The position numbers were made by a program, and so were the translations under genes. The notes beneath the pieces were generated by a model. The model was given only the letters and a program-made list of their open reading frames with translations, had not been told where the DNA came from and ran no database searches. A DNA stretch of 64,000 nucleotides. Source: Alphaproteobacteria bacterium HGW-Alphaproteobacteria-1 (lineage in GTDB: Bacteria > Pseudomonadota > Alphaproteobacteria > Rhodobacterales > Rhodobacteraceae). Of the stretch, positions 11,660-21,321 are shown piece by piece; within the stretch, counting starts at the first letter, position 1; each line of letters starts with the position of its first letter. Location: contig PHEQ01000008.1 in NCBI GenBank assembly GCA_002842985.1, positions 1 through 64,000 of the forward strand. Reading direction: 5' to 3'.

Positions 11660-13726
11660 TCAGTAGGCCTGCGCCTTGCGGATTTTCGTCATCCGCCCCT
11701 CCTCGGCGATGGCGCCGCCCAGGGTTGTCACCCCCTTGTCGCGCAGAAGCGCCAGCATCCGCACGAAGACCTCTGCCGTGGCCACCGTGTCACCCATGGC
11801 AGTATGGCGCGCCTCGGGCGGGATGGTGATGCCGAACCGCGCGCAGAGCGCATCGAGCGTGTGCTGTCCGGTGTGGTCAAACAGCCCCGCTGACATCAGA
11901 ACGGTGCAGAGCACCGGATTGTCGAAGCGCCGCCCGATCACCTCTTCCTTGAGCCGCAGAAACGCCAGATCGAAGGGCGCATTATGCGCCACCAGAACCG
12001 AACCCTGACAGAAATCATGGAACCGCTGGCCCACGTCGCGGATGTCGGGCGCGCCCTCGACCATGGCATCGGTGATGTGGTGCACCCGCGTCGAGGCGGA
12101 CGGGATCGGGCGGCCGGGATTGACCAGCGCATCGAAGGTCTCGCCGCGCAGGATACGCCCGTTGACGATGCGCAGCCCGGCGATCTGCACGATCTCGTCG
12201 CCGCCGCGCGGCGAAAGGCCCGTGGTCTCGGTGTCGAAGACCACAAAGCTCAGCTCCGACAGGTCGCGCGCGGCCATTTCGGCGCTCGGGGCAGCGGGGA
12301 GGTTGAAATCGTAGAATTCGGGGCGCGCATCGCCGGGGGCAAGCGGCGCGCTGGCCGATGGCAGCGGCAGCACGATGCGGTGCGCCGTGCCCTGTCCCTC
12401 GGCCCAGATCGTGGTCTGATGCGCGTCGAGCGCATCGCGGCCCGAGTAATGCCCATAGGCGGGCGAGAGCGGTGCAGAAAGCCAGCCCATGATCTCGCCA
12501 TCGGTGGCGACCTCTCCCTGCCAGCCAAGGATGAGCCGCGTCTCGGCCCCCTCCCCCTCGGTGGCAAGGACAAAGCCCTCGCGCGTGCCACTTTCGGCAA
12601 GCCGTTCGATCAGCCGCGCGAACAGCGTCGCCATGGCAAAGCCGTCGCAGGCCACCATGGCATCGGTGGGCATGGCGGAGACGGTCAGCGCCTTGCGCGC
12701 GCGCACCGCGTCAAAGATATGGCTGGCCGCCACGGCGGAGACCGGCCAGCGGCGTGAGGTGGCGGCGGCATGTTCGTTCGCCATGCTGTCGATGACCTTG
12801 AAGAGCCGCGCGACCTCCTCGGAGATCCCCTTGCGAAAGCCCGCCCGTGCCTCGGGGGGCAGGTCCGAGCCGGTTTCCAGCACATCGAGCAGTGCCGCGA
12901 TGGTGCCCGAAGGGCGGCGCACGCCTTCCAGCAGGGTGTTGAAAAGATGCGCCTGCTCGGCATGGGCGCGCAGATCGTCGGTGGCGTCCCGAAAGATCAG
13001 CACATGGCCCGACAGTTCCTCATCCGACAGGATCGGCGTGACGCGCCCCTGAAGGAAGCGCTTGCCGTCGGCGGAGGCGGCAAGAAAGGTCTCGGCGGTG
13101 GCGCGGCCCGCGATGCGCGCCTCCTCCAGTCGGCGCAGCGCGTCGGTCACCGGCTCGGGACGCAGCACCGCGTCAAGCGGCCGGTCAAGCCCGATCTGCG
13201 GCAAAAGCTCCTGCGCCATGCGGTTGTAGAGCATCACCCGGTTGTCGGGCGTGGCCACCACAGCGCCTTCGCCCAGGTCCCGGAACAGCGCCTCGAACAG
13301 CGCCTTTTCGCGGGCGATGCGGGCGGTCTCGCGCTCGACCGCGCGTTGCCGCGCGGCACGCGCCTCCGCAAGTGCCGCATTGATCGCATTGGCGGCGGGG
13401 GCCAGCGTGCTGAGATGCCTGGCCTGGCTTTCGTCGATCTGCAAATCCACATCGGCGCGCGCGCGCGTGGTCAGATCGGAGGCCAGCGCAAGAATGGGCT
13501 TGGCCACGTTTTCGTCGAACAGAAGCCCGATCCAGGCCGACAGACCCAGCACACCCAGACCGGCGATCATACCGCCAATCACGAAACCGTCGACAGGCCC
13601 GCCACCGCGCTTATGCCCGAACCAGAGCGCCGCACCGATCAGCACCGCCCCGCCGAGACCGAGCGCCACGAAGAAAAGCGCAAAGCGCAGCCGTAGGCCA
13701 AGGCGCTTTGTCAACCGCTCGATCAT
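11660..13726 (-). CDS. Membrane PAS / degenerate histidine kinase / DnaQ-like 3'-5' exonuclease fusion
   Basis: This 688-residue protein has two N-terminal membrane helices (about 14-36 and 46-70), a coiled coil (100-145) and a PAS-like domain (145-250). Next comes a helical hairpin placed like a histidine-kinase DHp domain (258-320), then a weak ATPase-like segment and a DEDDh exonuclease (493-660). Exonuclease residues D498 and E500 (FDTETTG), D586 (NAPFD), H641 and D646 are present, so the nuclease looks active. In the DHp position the usual H-E-L-R-T-P reads E-G-V-R-R-P (E267), so the phosphate-accepting histidine seems lost. It is last in the acs-symporter gene run and overlaps the receiver gene by 4 bases. 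Related operons in other proteobacteria carry a short free exonuclease here. Confidence 0.8.
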   Translation of the reverse strand: MIERLTKRLGLRLRFALFFVALGLGGAVLIGAALWFGHKRGGGPVDGFVIGGMIAGLGVLGLSAWIGLLFDENVAKPILALASDLTTRARADVDLQIDESQARHLSTLAPAANAINAALAEARAARQRAVERETARIAREKALFEALFRDLGEGAVVATPDNRVMLYNRMAQELLPQIGLDRPLDAVLRPEPVTDALRRLEEARIAGRATAETFLAASADGKRFLQGRVTPILSDEELSGHVLIFRDATDDLRAHAEQAHLFNTLLEGVRRPSGTIAALLDVLETGSDLPPEARAGFRKGISEEVARLFKVIDSMANEHAAATSRRWPVSAVAASHIFDAVRARKALTVSAMPTDAMVACDGFAMATLFARLIERLAESGTREGFVLATEGEGAETRLILGWQGEVATDGEIMGWLSAPLSPAYGHYSGRDALDAHQTTIWAEGQGTAHRIVLPLPSASAPLAPGDARPEFYDFNLPAAPSAEMAARDLSELSFVVFDTETTGLSPRGGDEIVQIAGLRIVNGRILRGETFDALVNPGRPIPSASTRVHHITDAMVEGAPDIRDVGQRFHDFCQGSVLVAHNAPFDLAFLRLKEEVIGRRFDNPVLCTVLMSAGLFDHTGQHTLDALCARFGITIPPEARHTAMGDTVATAEVFVRMLALLRDKGVTTLGGAIAEEGRMTKIRKAQAY

Positions 13727-14100
13727 GCGCCGTCATCCAGAAGCGCACAGACCTTTTGCGTCAGATCAGCGGTAGAGAACGGCTTGGTCATGAAGGCGTC
13801 GGCCCCCACGGCCATGCCCTTGCGCCGCTCCATCTCGCCGCCGCCTGCCGTGATCATCAGAACCTTGACGCCTTGCAGCCCCGCGTCGCGGCGGATGAGC
13901 TGACAGACCTCATAGCCCGATTTGCCCGGTAGCATCACATCGAGCACAACCAGATCCGGGCGTTCCTCGGCCAGTGCGGTCATCGCATCGGTGCCGCTGG
14001 CCACGCGGCGCAGCGCATAGCCCGCGCGCCCGATCAGATGGGTGAGCGCGAGGGCGATATTGTCCTCGTCCTCGACGAGCAGAACGGTCTTTTGCGGCAT
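13723..14100 (-). CDS. Single-domain CheY-like response regulator
   Basis: This 125-residue protein is a receiver domain only. It has the acidic pair (VEDED), the phosphorylation aspartate in VVLDVMLPG, the conserved Thr/Ser (MITAGG) and Lys in TKPF. No output domain follows. It is translated just before the membrane PAS/exonuclease protein with an ATGA overlap, so it is a likely partner or regulator of that protein. The kinase that phosphorylates it is not obvious because the adjacent kinase-like protein lacks the histidine. Confidence 0.88.
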   Translation of the reverse strand: MPQKTVLLVEDEDNIALALTHLIGRAGYALRRVASGTDAMTALAEERPDLVVLDVMLPGKSGYEVCQLIRRDAGLQGVKVLMITAGGGEMERRKGMAVGADAFMTKPFSTADLTQKVCALLDDGA

Positions 14101-14119
14101 CGCGGGCCTCCTCTCCCGG

Positions 14120-19378: not shown

Positions 19379-19386
19379 GACCCCCC

Positions 19387-21321
19387 TCAGGCGTTCGCAC
19401 GATTGGCGATGAGGTCATCGACAACCGACGGATCGGCCAGCGTCGAGGTGTCGCCCAAAGCGCCGTAATCGTTTTCGGCGATTTTGCGCAGGATGCGGCG
19501 CATGATCTTGCCCGAGCGCGTCTTGGGCAGGCCCGGCGCCCATTGGATCACATCGGGCTTGGCAATCGGGCCGATTTCCTGACGCACCCAGTTGGCAAGC
19601 TCGGTGCGCAGATCATCCGTTGCCGTAACCCCGTCCATCAACGTGACATAGCAATAGATGCCCTGTCCCTTGATGTCGTGGGGATAACCCACCACGGCGG
19701 CCTCGCTGACGGTGGCATGGGCGACCAGCGCCGATTCAACCTCCGCCGTGCCCATCCGGTGCCCGGAGACGTTGATCACGTCATCGACGCGGCCGGTGAT
19801 CCAGTAATCGCCGTCCTCGTCCCGGCGGCAGCCATCACCCGAGAAATAGTAGCCCTTGAACATCTCGAAATAGGTCTGCTTGAAGCGATCATGATCGCCC
19901 CAGATGGTGCGCATCTGCCCCGGCCAGCTATCCTTGAGCGCCAGAACGCCCTCGACAGCCCCCTCAAGCTCGTTGCCCTTGTCGTCGAGCACGACGGGCT
20001 GCACGCCGAAGAACGGTTTGGTCGCCGAACCCGGCTTGGGCGTGTCCACCACCCCCGGCAACGGCGTGATCAGGATGCCGCCCGTCTCGGTCTGCCACCA
20101 GGTGTCCACGATAGGGCACCGGCCCTTGCCGACATTCTCGTTATACCAGTTCCAGGCCTCGGGGTTGATCGGCTCGCCAACCGAGCCGAGCAGGCGCAGA
20201 CTGCTGAGGTCACTGCCCTCGACGGGCGCGGTGCCCTTGCCCATCAGTGCGCGAATGGCCGTGGGGGCGGTGTAGAACTGCGTCACCTTGTGCTTTTCGC
20301 AGACCTGCCAGAAGCGGCCCGCATCGGGATAGGTCGGCACACCCTCGAACATCAGCGTGGTCGCGCCATTGGCCAGCGGGCCGTAGACGATATAGCTGTG
20401 GCCGGTGACCCAGCCCACATCGGCGGTGCACCAATAGATATCGCCCTCGTGATAATCAAAAATGTATTCATGCGTCATCGACGCATAGACGAGATAGCCG
20501 CCGGTGGTATGCACCACGCCCTTGGGCATCCCCGTCGAGCCGGACGTGTAGAGGATGAAGAGCGGGTCCTCGGCGCCCATTTCTTCGGGCGGGCAATCGG
20601 CGCTGACCTTCTCGGCCTCTTCATGCCACCAGAAATCGAGACCCGAGCGCCACGCCACCTGTCCGCCGGTGCGCTTGACCACGAGGCATTTCACGTCCCG
20701 CGTGTCATGCAGCAGCGCCTGGTTGACGTTGTCCTTGAGCTTGGTCGCGCGCCCCCCGCGCGGGGCGTGATCGGCGGTTATGACCATCTTGGCGTCGCAG
20801 CCGTTGATCCGCGCGCCGAGCGCGTCGGGCGAAAAGCCCGCGAAAACGATCGAATGAATCGCGCCGATGCGCGCGCATGCCAGCATGGCATAGGCCGCCT
20901 CGGGGATCATCGGCATGTAGATCACCACCCGGTCGCCCTTGCCGATGCCATGGCTCTTGAGCACGTTGGCCATCCGGCAGGTCTGGGCGTGCAGCTCTCG
21001 ATAGGTAATGTGCAGCGCCTCGTCGGTAGGCGAATCCGGCTCCCAGATGATCGCGGTCTGATCGCCGCGCGTCTCGAGATGCCGGTCGATGCAATTGGCC
21101 GCAACGTTCAGCGTGCCGTCCTCGAACCATTTGATCGAGACGTTGTCATAGTCGTATGAGGTGTTCTTTACCTTGGTGTAGGGCTTGATCCAGTCGATCC
21201 GCTTTCCCTGCTCGCGCCAGAACCCCTCGGGGTCGCGAATCGATTCGGCATACATGCGCGCATAGGTCTCGGCGTCGATGTGAAACCCTTTTGTGCCCGC
21301 AGCAGCAACAGTATCGGCCAT
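19387..21321 (-). CDS. acs: Acetyl-CoA synthetase (AMP-forming)
   Basis: This 644-residue enzyme makes acetyl-CoA from acetate, ATP and CoA through acetyl-AMP. The adenylate-forming loop [10 protein letters not shown] and the A8 motif are present. The C-terminal [11 protein letters not shown] carries the lysine that is acetylated for regulation in this family. The start at 21321 follows GGAGG by 9 bases. It is the first gene of the minus-strand acetate run, and its upstream region carries a perfect 20-bp palindrome at 21477-21496. Confidence 0.96.

Follow-up and report, generated by a model that had tools for sequence, protein, structure and literature searches.

A predicted dead histidine-kinase core links the PAS and exonuclease domains of a membrane protein and co-occurs with a lone receiver in an acetate-linked gene cluster

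The first 64 kb of contig PHEQ01000008.1, from the 4.02-Mb genome of Alphaproteobacteria bacterium HGW-Alphaproteobacteria-1 (the window hereafter, meaning the whole stretch of 64,000 nucleotides that was analysed), carry a cluster of eight minus-strand genes that begins with acetate activation and import and ends with a stand-alone receiver, REC, and a membrane-anchored predicted exonuclease, EXO. The cluster is genuine and belongs to a Roseovarius-like member of the Rhodobacterales, Roseovarius providing the nearest named loci, and its gene set is conserved far above chance. The first gene, acs (19387..21321, ATG at 21321), encodes an AMP-forming acetyl-CoA synthetase (PRK00174, 1058 bits; TIGR02188, 1024.5 bits) and is followed by adk (18686..19372), which encodes an adenylate kinase with a lid domain (PF00406, ADK_lid). 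Acs makes AMP, and an adk gene adjoining acs fits AMP recycling. The DUF4212 small symporter subunit (18361..18639; PF13937; TIGR03647, 106.6 bits against a cut-off of 26) and the VC_2705-family sodium/solute symporter (16585..18348; TIGR03648, 796 bits against 321) form a pair in which both members pass their curated family cut-offs. The second half comprises a DUF294 protein (14628..16469), a 168-residue small membrane protein, SMP (14120..14626), REC (13723..14100; PF00072), and the 688-residue EXO (11660..13726), identified by domain searches, alignments, AlphaFold2 and Foldseek.

All eight genes thus occur in the order that the original prediction, made from the sequence alone, had given. 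Its short gaps are mostly borne out, with 14 nucleotides between acs and adk, 46 between adk and the DUF4212 gene, 12 between the latter and the symporter gene, 115 between the symporter and DUF294 genes, 1 between DUF294 and SMP, and 19 between SMP and REC; the "several stop-start overlaps" reduce to one 4-nucleotide overlap (ATGA) between REC and EXO plus the 1-nucleotide gap. Packing is therefore tight in the DUF294-SMP-REC-EXO half and looser upstream. The region between the symporter and DUF294 genes (16465-16590) contains a 12-pair GC hairpin without a U run, which may split expression of the two cluster halves; the folding stability of the region as a whole is ordinary (14 of 200 shuffles fold equally well). 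Judging from gene order and spacing, co-transcription of both halves is likely. Promoter-like sites (3, 2.1 expected) and terminator-like sites (14, 8.4 expected) were not used as evidence.

The original prediction described EXO as a membrane PAS/exonuclease fusion, a description that is correct as far as it goes, but which overlooked a further module: between the PAS domain and the nuclease lies what sequence and model comparisons identify as a complete but dead histidine-kinase core. The PAS domain (residues 150-250; 12977..13279, minus strand as for all EXO domains) scores just below the PF08448 cut-off (21.5 against 23.1 bits), and PAS_4 was matched in 29 of 40 EXO members at E<=1. It is followed by a pseudo-DHp helix pair (residues 249-326; 12749..12982), in which Glu267 occupies the position of the phosphoacceptor histidine and Arg270 is kept, and by a degenerate, HATPase-like CA domain (residues 330-457; 12356..12739) recognised by HHalign and Foldseek. 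The C-terminal domain (residues 495-654; 11765..12244) matches RNase_T (PF00929), and the D-E-D-H-D catalytic residues are invariant in 40 aligned homologues, so that EXO is predicted to be a membrane-anchored DEDDh 3'-5' exonuclease. It shares all catalytic residues and the fold with DnaQ/PolC-type exonucleases, from which it differs by its membrane attachment via a PAS domain and a dead kinase.

Several observations characterise the kinase core. HHalign aligned EXO to the core of an SLC5-type histidine kinase, the gene for which lies in another part of the window genome, with a probability of 98.3 over 227 columns spanning DHp and CA; in that alignment, the N-box Asn and the DNGRG of the kinase are not kept in EXO. 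Pfam HisKA was matched in five of 40 EXO members (best 1.5e-5), and HATPase_c was not matched in the window EXO at E<=1; for the other 39 members, the Pfam listing covers the best 25 of 47 families. The phosphoacceptor His occurs in none of 100 non-redundant full-length EXO sequences, being replaced by Glu in 57 and Asp in 27 (acidic in 84), and the Arg three positions further (H+3) is kept in 96. EXO thus has the PAS-DHp-CA architecture and fold of a histidine kinase and lacks the His and the HATPase boxes of an active one. A DxGxG motif occurs somewhere before the nuclease in 31 of the 100, a count that is not position-specific and was left unused as evidence either way. In a Foldseek search with the AlphaFold2 model (pLDDT 82.6, pTM 0.59), sensor kinases lead (9a5d WalK, 4gcz, 4i5s), from 3e-16 at rank 1, and DivL (4q20) ranks 33rd, DnaQ-type exonucleases lying between; the TM-scores by query of the sensor-kinase matches, 0.16-0.26, reflect alignment to one part of a multidomain model. 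No fusion of REC to EXO was found among 203 loci with an EXO open reading frame, and, among the open-access PMC papers listed, none was seen to report an exonuclease fused to a pseudohistidine kinase.

REC carries the phosphoacceptor Asp54 and Lys106, and its presence follows that of the pseudo-DHp helices. Searches for EXO covered 292 genomes from the order, 385 from the class and 398 from the phylum, and gave matches at the chosen cut-offs in 172, 24 and 51, respectively. One pattern scan (best 80 of 300) gave 75 loci and 129 places were picked among the matches listed, which together with the window make 205 loci; 203 have an EXO open reading frame (all except L057 and L063), and 196 encode both PAS and nuclease, L065 with its broken EXO frame and forms of 287-506 residues without a PAS match being set aside. 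Leaving out L020 and L047, which have no upstream sequence, gave 194 loci, and removing those at least 90% identical left 165. Among these, REC lies beside EXO in 97 of 100 loci with a full PAS-CA linker, in 8 of 18 with a shrunken linker and in none of the 47 without DHp (L198, with a weak receiver, was scored as receiver-bearing; L165 was scored as receiver-less, a 52% identical receiver lying 4.6 kb away on the other strand of the same contig). In full-DHp loci, Asp54 is conserved in 97 of 98 receivers, Lys106 in 97 and Thr/Ser84 in 96, so that these receivers are expected to be phosphorylated by some live kinase.

REC and pseudo-DHp have been gained and lost together. In the 43-row short-EXO clade and a 10-row shrunken clade, the receiver alone was lost, all 43 and all 10 loci, respectively, having retained the SMP, DUF294, symporter and DUF4212 genes. 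On the gammaproteobacterial side, L200 has lost both the DHp (its linker is 13 residues long) and the receiver, and its sisters L191 and L196 keep both. Seven shrunken rows that keep a receiver, in genera g7 (probably Paracoccus) and g57, have a short helix pair, and all seven retain the Arg, as compared with 2 of 10 receiver-less shrunken rows, the alignment being uncertain for both groups. Each trait requires seven changes on a FastTree tree of the nuclease domain, and the four supported independent pairs were concordant in 3.9 cases on average and discordant in none; with the two other scorings of the shrunken rows, 3.8 and 3.3 of five pairs were concordant on average. Pagel's test on the midpoint-rooted tree favours dependent evolution, with a likelihood ratio of 28.9 (p 8e-6) or 23.4 (p 1e-4), depending on labelling. 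When 21 receiver-less genomes (11 short-EXO, 8 shrunken, 2 DHp-deleted) were searched again, no receiver scored above 102.1 bits, whereas the operon receiver of six control genomes scored 114-193 bits, so the receiver seems to have been lost rather than relocated.

A precedent exists in Caulobacter. DivL is a pseudokinase with PAS and DHp-CA but no His, whose partner DivK is a single-domain receiver; its R553, at H+3, is needed for binding of DivK~P, and lineages without DivK often lack the DHp-CA of DivL, receiver and DHp-CA having been lost together (PMC4211667, from the text available). The EXO/REC pair has the same combination of a non-phosphorylatable His site, an H+3 Arg and, through few independent events, joint gain and loss of receiver and DHp. 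By contrast, DivL has Tyr at the His site and acts through CckA, whereas EXO has Glu or Asp, a fused exonuclease and an acetate cluster as its surroundings. The comparison suggests that EXO/REC would resemble DivK/DivL in its working and differ in output (a nuclease), residue and context; since EXO ends in a nuclease, we consider it DivL-like in working only and do not file it as a DivL orthologue. Receiver binding is demonstrated for DivL, whereas for EXO we infer it.

If REC is phosphorylated, the SLC5-type kinase is the candidate donor. In the window genome this kinase (L076:1067-3760, minus strand, 898 residues) has HisKA and HATPase_c, after which it ends, with no C-terminal Response_reg match at E<=0.01. 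A pseudo-DHp profile made from EXO sequences alone was used to rank the open reading frames at the 21 HisKA loci of the genome; the SLC5-type kinase came first with kinase-linked loci excluded (30.4 against 17.4 bits) and again with 57 mostly Rhodobacterales rows (16.8 against 7.7 bits). An earlier iterated profile, which could have absorbed SLC5 kinases, was set aside, and the EXO-only profile kept the same first place. Likewise, the nearest paralogue of REC in the window genome is the receiver beside this kinase (100.5 against 75.5 bits). An SLC5-type kinase lies directly upstream of REC-EXO in 12 of 203 loci, 10 of which belong to the non-redundant 165; six of the 12 are in named Betaproteobacteria, four in genus g7 of the window's family and two in further genomes. 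These kinases are about 41-43% identical to that of the window genome (the one at L064 is in two pieces); HisKA and HATPase_c were confirmed in three, and HELRTP was present in all 11 checked. On plasmid 1 of Paracoccus denitrificans PD1222, the genes for DUF294, an 81-residue protein, the SLC5-type kinase (43% identical to that of the window genome), REC and EXO follow one another (PDEN_RS25395 to RS25415), the last three being annotated 'ATP-binding protein', 'response regulator' and 'exonuclease domain-containing protein'. We also note that the minus-strand cluster around the window genome's kinase (L076:1064-5785) includes ScfRs, a short-chain-fatty-acyl-CoA-type regulator, a lone receiver and a small membrane protein.

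The kinase-REC-EXO gene order, and the fact that the SLC5-type kinase has the DHp nearest to the pseudo-DHp in the window genome, would also be accounted for if the pseudokinase served as a dimer partner. EXO would then form mixed dimers with the SLC5-type kinase, as RetS does with GacS, REC would be the phosphate acceptor of that kinase, and REC and pseudo-DHp would be lost jointly as parts of one kinase complex. We regard this explanation as unlikely: the SLC5-type kinase and its own receiver stay in 10 short-EXO genomes, among the matches listed, and the Arg corresponding to the receiver-binding residue of DivL is kept in almost all full-length EXO.

We therefore favour, at a probability of about 0.5, a scheme in which a dead histidine-kinase module sets the state of the EXO nuclease, the path running from SLC5-type kinase to REC to pseudokinase to membrane exonuclease. 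The kinase, encoded elsewhere in the window genome, would phosphorylate REC, and REC~P would dock on the pseudo-DHp helices of EXO. Phosphotransfer to EXO being impossible because Glu or Asp replaces the His, docking itself would switch the nuclease, and information would flow in the reverse direction of a normal two-component system, as from DivK~P to DivL. Physical docking, the direction of control and the SLC5-type kinase as phosphodonor in the window organism are the parts of the scheme that we infer. Since the module sits in an acetate import and activation cluster, the nuclease state would follow carboxylate supply. The authors of the DivL study propose that unwanted alteration of the receiver is avoided because catalysis has been lost (PMC4211667, available text); by analogy, the same would hold for EXO and REC, the receiver being left unchanged by a partner without catalysis.

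A number of points weigh against this scheme. Independent losses are few, so that with four to five supported pairs a sign test cannot reach 0.05, and Pagel's test is known to overstate when events are few. When all shrunken rows are scored as lost (the 3.3 of 5 above), a discordant pair appears in 1 of 200 pairings. Only score and place distinguish the operon receiver from that of the kinase, and the score gap is narrow (114 against 102 bits). Exceptions occur: L067 and L199 have a DHp-like segment without an adjoining receiver, none scoring above 67 bits in the L199 genome; at L121 a receiver accompanies a degenerate DHp; and at L198 the receiver seemingly lies inside a 1668-residue open reading frame, the DHp segment matching nothing. 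Regarding the kinase, the SSF basis of the name SLC5 is weak (23.6 bits against a cut-off of 22.8 in the window genome, and 19.8, below the cut-off, in P. denitrificans). The kinase has a receiver of its own within 400 nucleotides in 13 of 13 Rhodobacterales genomes, among the matches listed, and REC may therefore be a second partner or no partner. Finally, because the kinase is near-universal, being present in 286 of 292 Rhodobacterales genomes, its presence cannot discriminate, and the attempt to use it as a phylogenetic-profile partner of REC was uninformative. As a separate observation, the 1668-residue frame at L198 (L198:621-7896), beside an EXO relative, has kinase-like and receiver-like parts and may represent either a variant hybrid kinase or a misassembly.

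The link between this cluster and acetate has an experimental basis in Pseudomonas, where the association of symporter, DUF294 and exonuclease genes with acetate is already published; the statements from this literature are limited to the text available for each paper. The DUF294 gene of P. putida, pp_0354, is induced by acetate, and ErdR binds to its promoter (PMC8402216); the gene forms one operon with the exonuclease gene pp_0353, and the homologues of both adjoin actP in P. aeruginosa PAO1 (PMC9927547). These data uphold the tie of DUF294 and exonuclease to acetate genes that had been predicted. Deletion followed by growth on acetate, which the original prediction had named as a test that could refute it, spoke against it: loss of either pp_0354 or pp_0353 did not impair growth on 20 mM acetate, and the pp_0353 mutant alone was impaired on pyruvate. 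In its favour, transposon-fitness data of Rand et al., cited in the same paper, indicate that pp_0353 mattered at 5 mM acetate, a condition that its authors could not test (PMC9927547). The same authors raise mRNA decay as a speculation (PMC9927547), and acetate growth of a P. fluorescens DUF294 mutant was affected only negligibly (PMC5715377). The link is thus real, yet a clean acetate phenotype is not found in the cited work.

The lack of a phenotype of the P. putida deletions on 20 mM acetate (PMC9927547), together with the 47 of 165 relatives whose nuclease and DUF294 genes occur without REC and pseudokinase, would suit an ordinary acetate-regulon cluster. DUF294 and exonuclease would play minor parts in carboxylate metabolism, for example in turning over RNA or scavenging nucleotides, and what remains of the kinase would be an inert linker or membrane spacer. 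An inert linker, however, should not covary with the gene for a catalytically intact receiver, nor would its Arg (96 of 100) and its acidic residue (84 of 100) be kept, which makes this explanation improbable, to about the same degree as the mixed dimers.

The CrbS/CrbR (MxtR/ErdR) regulon with pp_0354 and pp_0353 shares with the window genome an SLC5-type kinase, acs, symporter, DUF294, exonuclease and the acetate link (PMC8402216, PMC9927547, PMC5715377, available text). It differs in that CrbS is a hybrid kinase acting via CrbR on transcription (PMC5715377), whereas the window genome's kinase has no C-terminal receiver and a lone receiver adjoins it; further, EXO carries a pseudokinase, and the available text on the P. 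putida system does not mention a receiver beside pp_0353.

The DUF294 protein, a plausible second effector, consists of a cNMP-like domain, two CBS domains, a DUF294 nucleotidyltransferase domain and DUF294_C (Pfam). It has the GlnD-type nucleotidyltransferase motif, its Gly-Ser and Asp-x-Asp active-site residues being the same in all 144 aligned homologues. It shares the GS-x-G-R-x-E...DxD motif with GlnD and GlnE, as well as a related C-terminal domain (PMC3710099, available text). Unlike these, it carries CBS and cNMP-like domains and no HD or ACT domain: a Pfam scan of its 613 residues at E<=0.1 returned cNMP_binding, CBS, DUF294, DUF294_C and a sub-threshold DUF6074 only. In a PDB sequence search (best 60 of 97), matches fell in the CBS and cNMP parts only. 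The original prediction had its CBS and cNMP domains sensing acetate flux or the AMP/ATP ratio. At the position that we take to be that of the cAMP-clamping, phosphate-binding Arg of CAP, Val (45), Ala (39), gap (17), Gln, Met and Leu are the six most frequent letters, which make up 122 of 144 rows and include no Arg; sensing of a cyclic nucleotide is therefore doubtful, and weakened as a candidate for the main DUF294 input.

The active site is invariant, and 148 of 165 EXO have a DUF294 gene on either strand no further than 6 kb away, which raises the question of whether the two enzymes form a writer/eraser pair. DUF294, in the manner of GlnD/GlnE, would add a nucleotide to a protein or to the 3' end of an RNA, EXO would take it off, and REC and PAS would set the eraser. 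DUF294_C does group with the C-terminal domains of GlnD/GlnE (PMC3710099, available text), and the missing HD domain would leave the window protein without a 'remover' of its own by Pfam. In P. putida, the two mutants differ, the exonuclease mutant alone being impaired on pyruvate (PMC9927547), and we hold this pairing to be the least probable of the alternatives. In nine loci from other alphaproteobacteria (L174-L182), the exonuclease gene and a downstream DUF294 gene lie on opposite strands facing each other, with no shared operon.

Our preferred scheme, from kinase through REC to a pseudokinase-controlled nuclease, can be extended more tentatively. In the wider form, the transporter-like SLC5 kinase would itself sense a carboxylate and phosphorylate REC, which would switch RNA trimming by EXO or its removal of nucleotides added by DUF294, so that carbon supply would govern the turnover of nucleic acids or nucleotidyl-proteins without a transcription factor. 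As to origin, a duplicated SLC5 kinase core may have been grafted onto a PAS-exonuclease, its receiver being retained.

SMP has two transmembrane segments and a beta-rich domain, which, by positive-inside reasoning, is probably periplasmic. Two Cys are invariant in 25 aligned rows and the AlphaFold2 model is confident (pLDDT 95.6); SMP has no Pfam or NCBIfam match, and its fold has no PDB match at E<=1e-3. The family also occurs on 20 plasmid records, including Rhodobacterales and Rhizobiaceae.

Elsewhere in the genome, a second ADK match lies at G000:C49, adk of the cluster being the other of the two, and G000:C12:182232-184103 encodes another acyl-CoA synthetase of the AMP-forming type, which shares 43% identity with acs; our guess is that it is a propionyl-CoA synthetase. 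The cluster is bordered by uvrB (22059-24311, plus strand, by Pfam), divergent from acs and overlain by an 873-residue minus-strand open reading frame that has no Pfam match and is likely spurious, and, downstream of EXO, by a gene for an autotransporter beta-barrel protein (9472-11421) and then tRNA-Gly (9266-9339).

In conclusion, DivL is the example known so far in which a histidine kinase has become the reader of a receiver. If our reading is true, EXO, which covaries with a receiver of its own, would be a second instance, meaning that reversed two-component flow has been used more than once, here with an enzyme, a nuclease, as its direct output. With its five-gene cluster, P. denitrificans PD1222 is a laboratory strain suited to testing this reading, which would give a testable role to an exonuclease that belongs to the Pseudomonas acetate regulon and yet is unexplained there.

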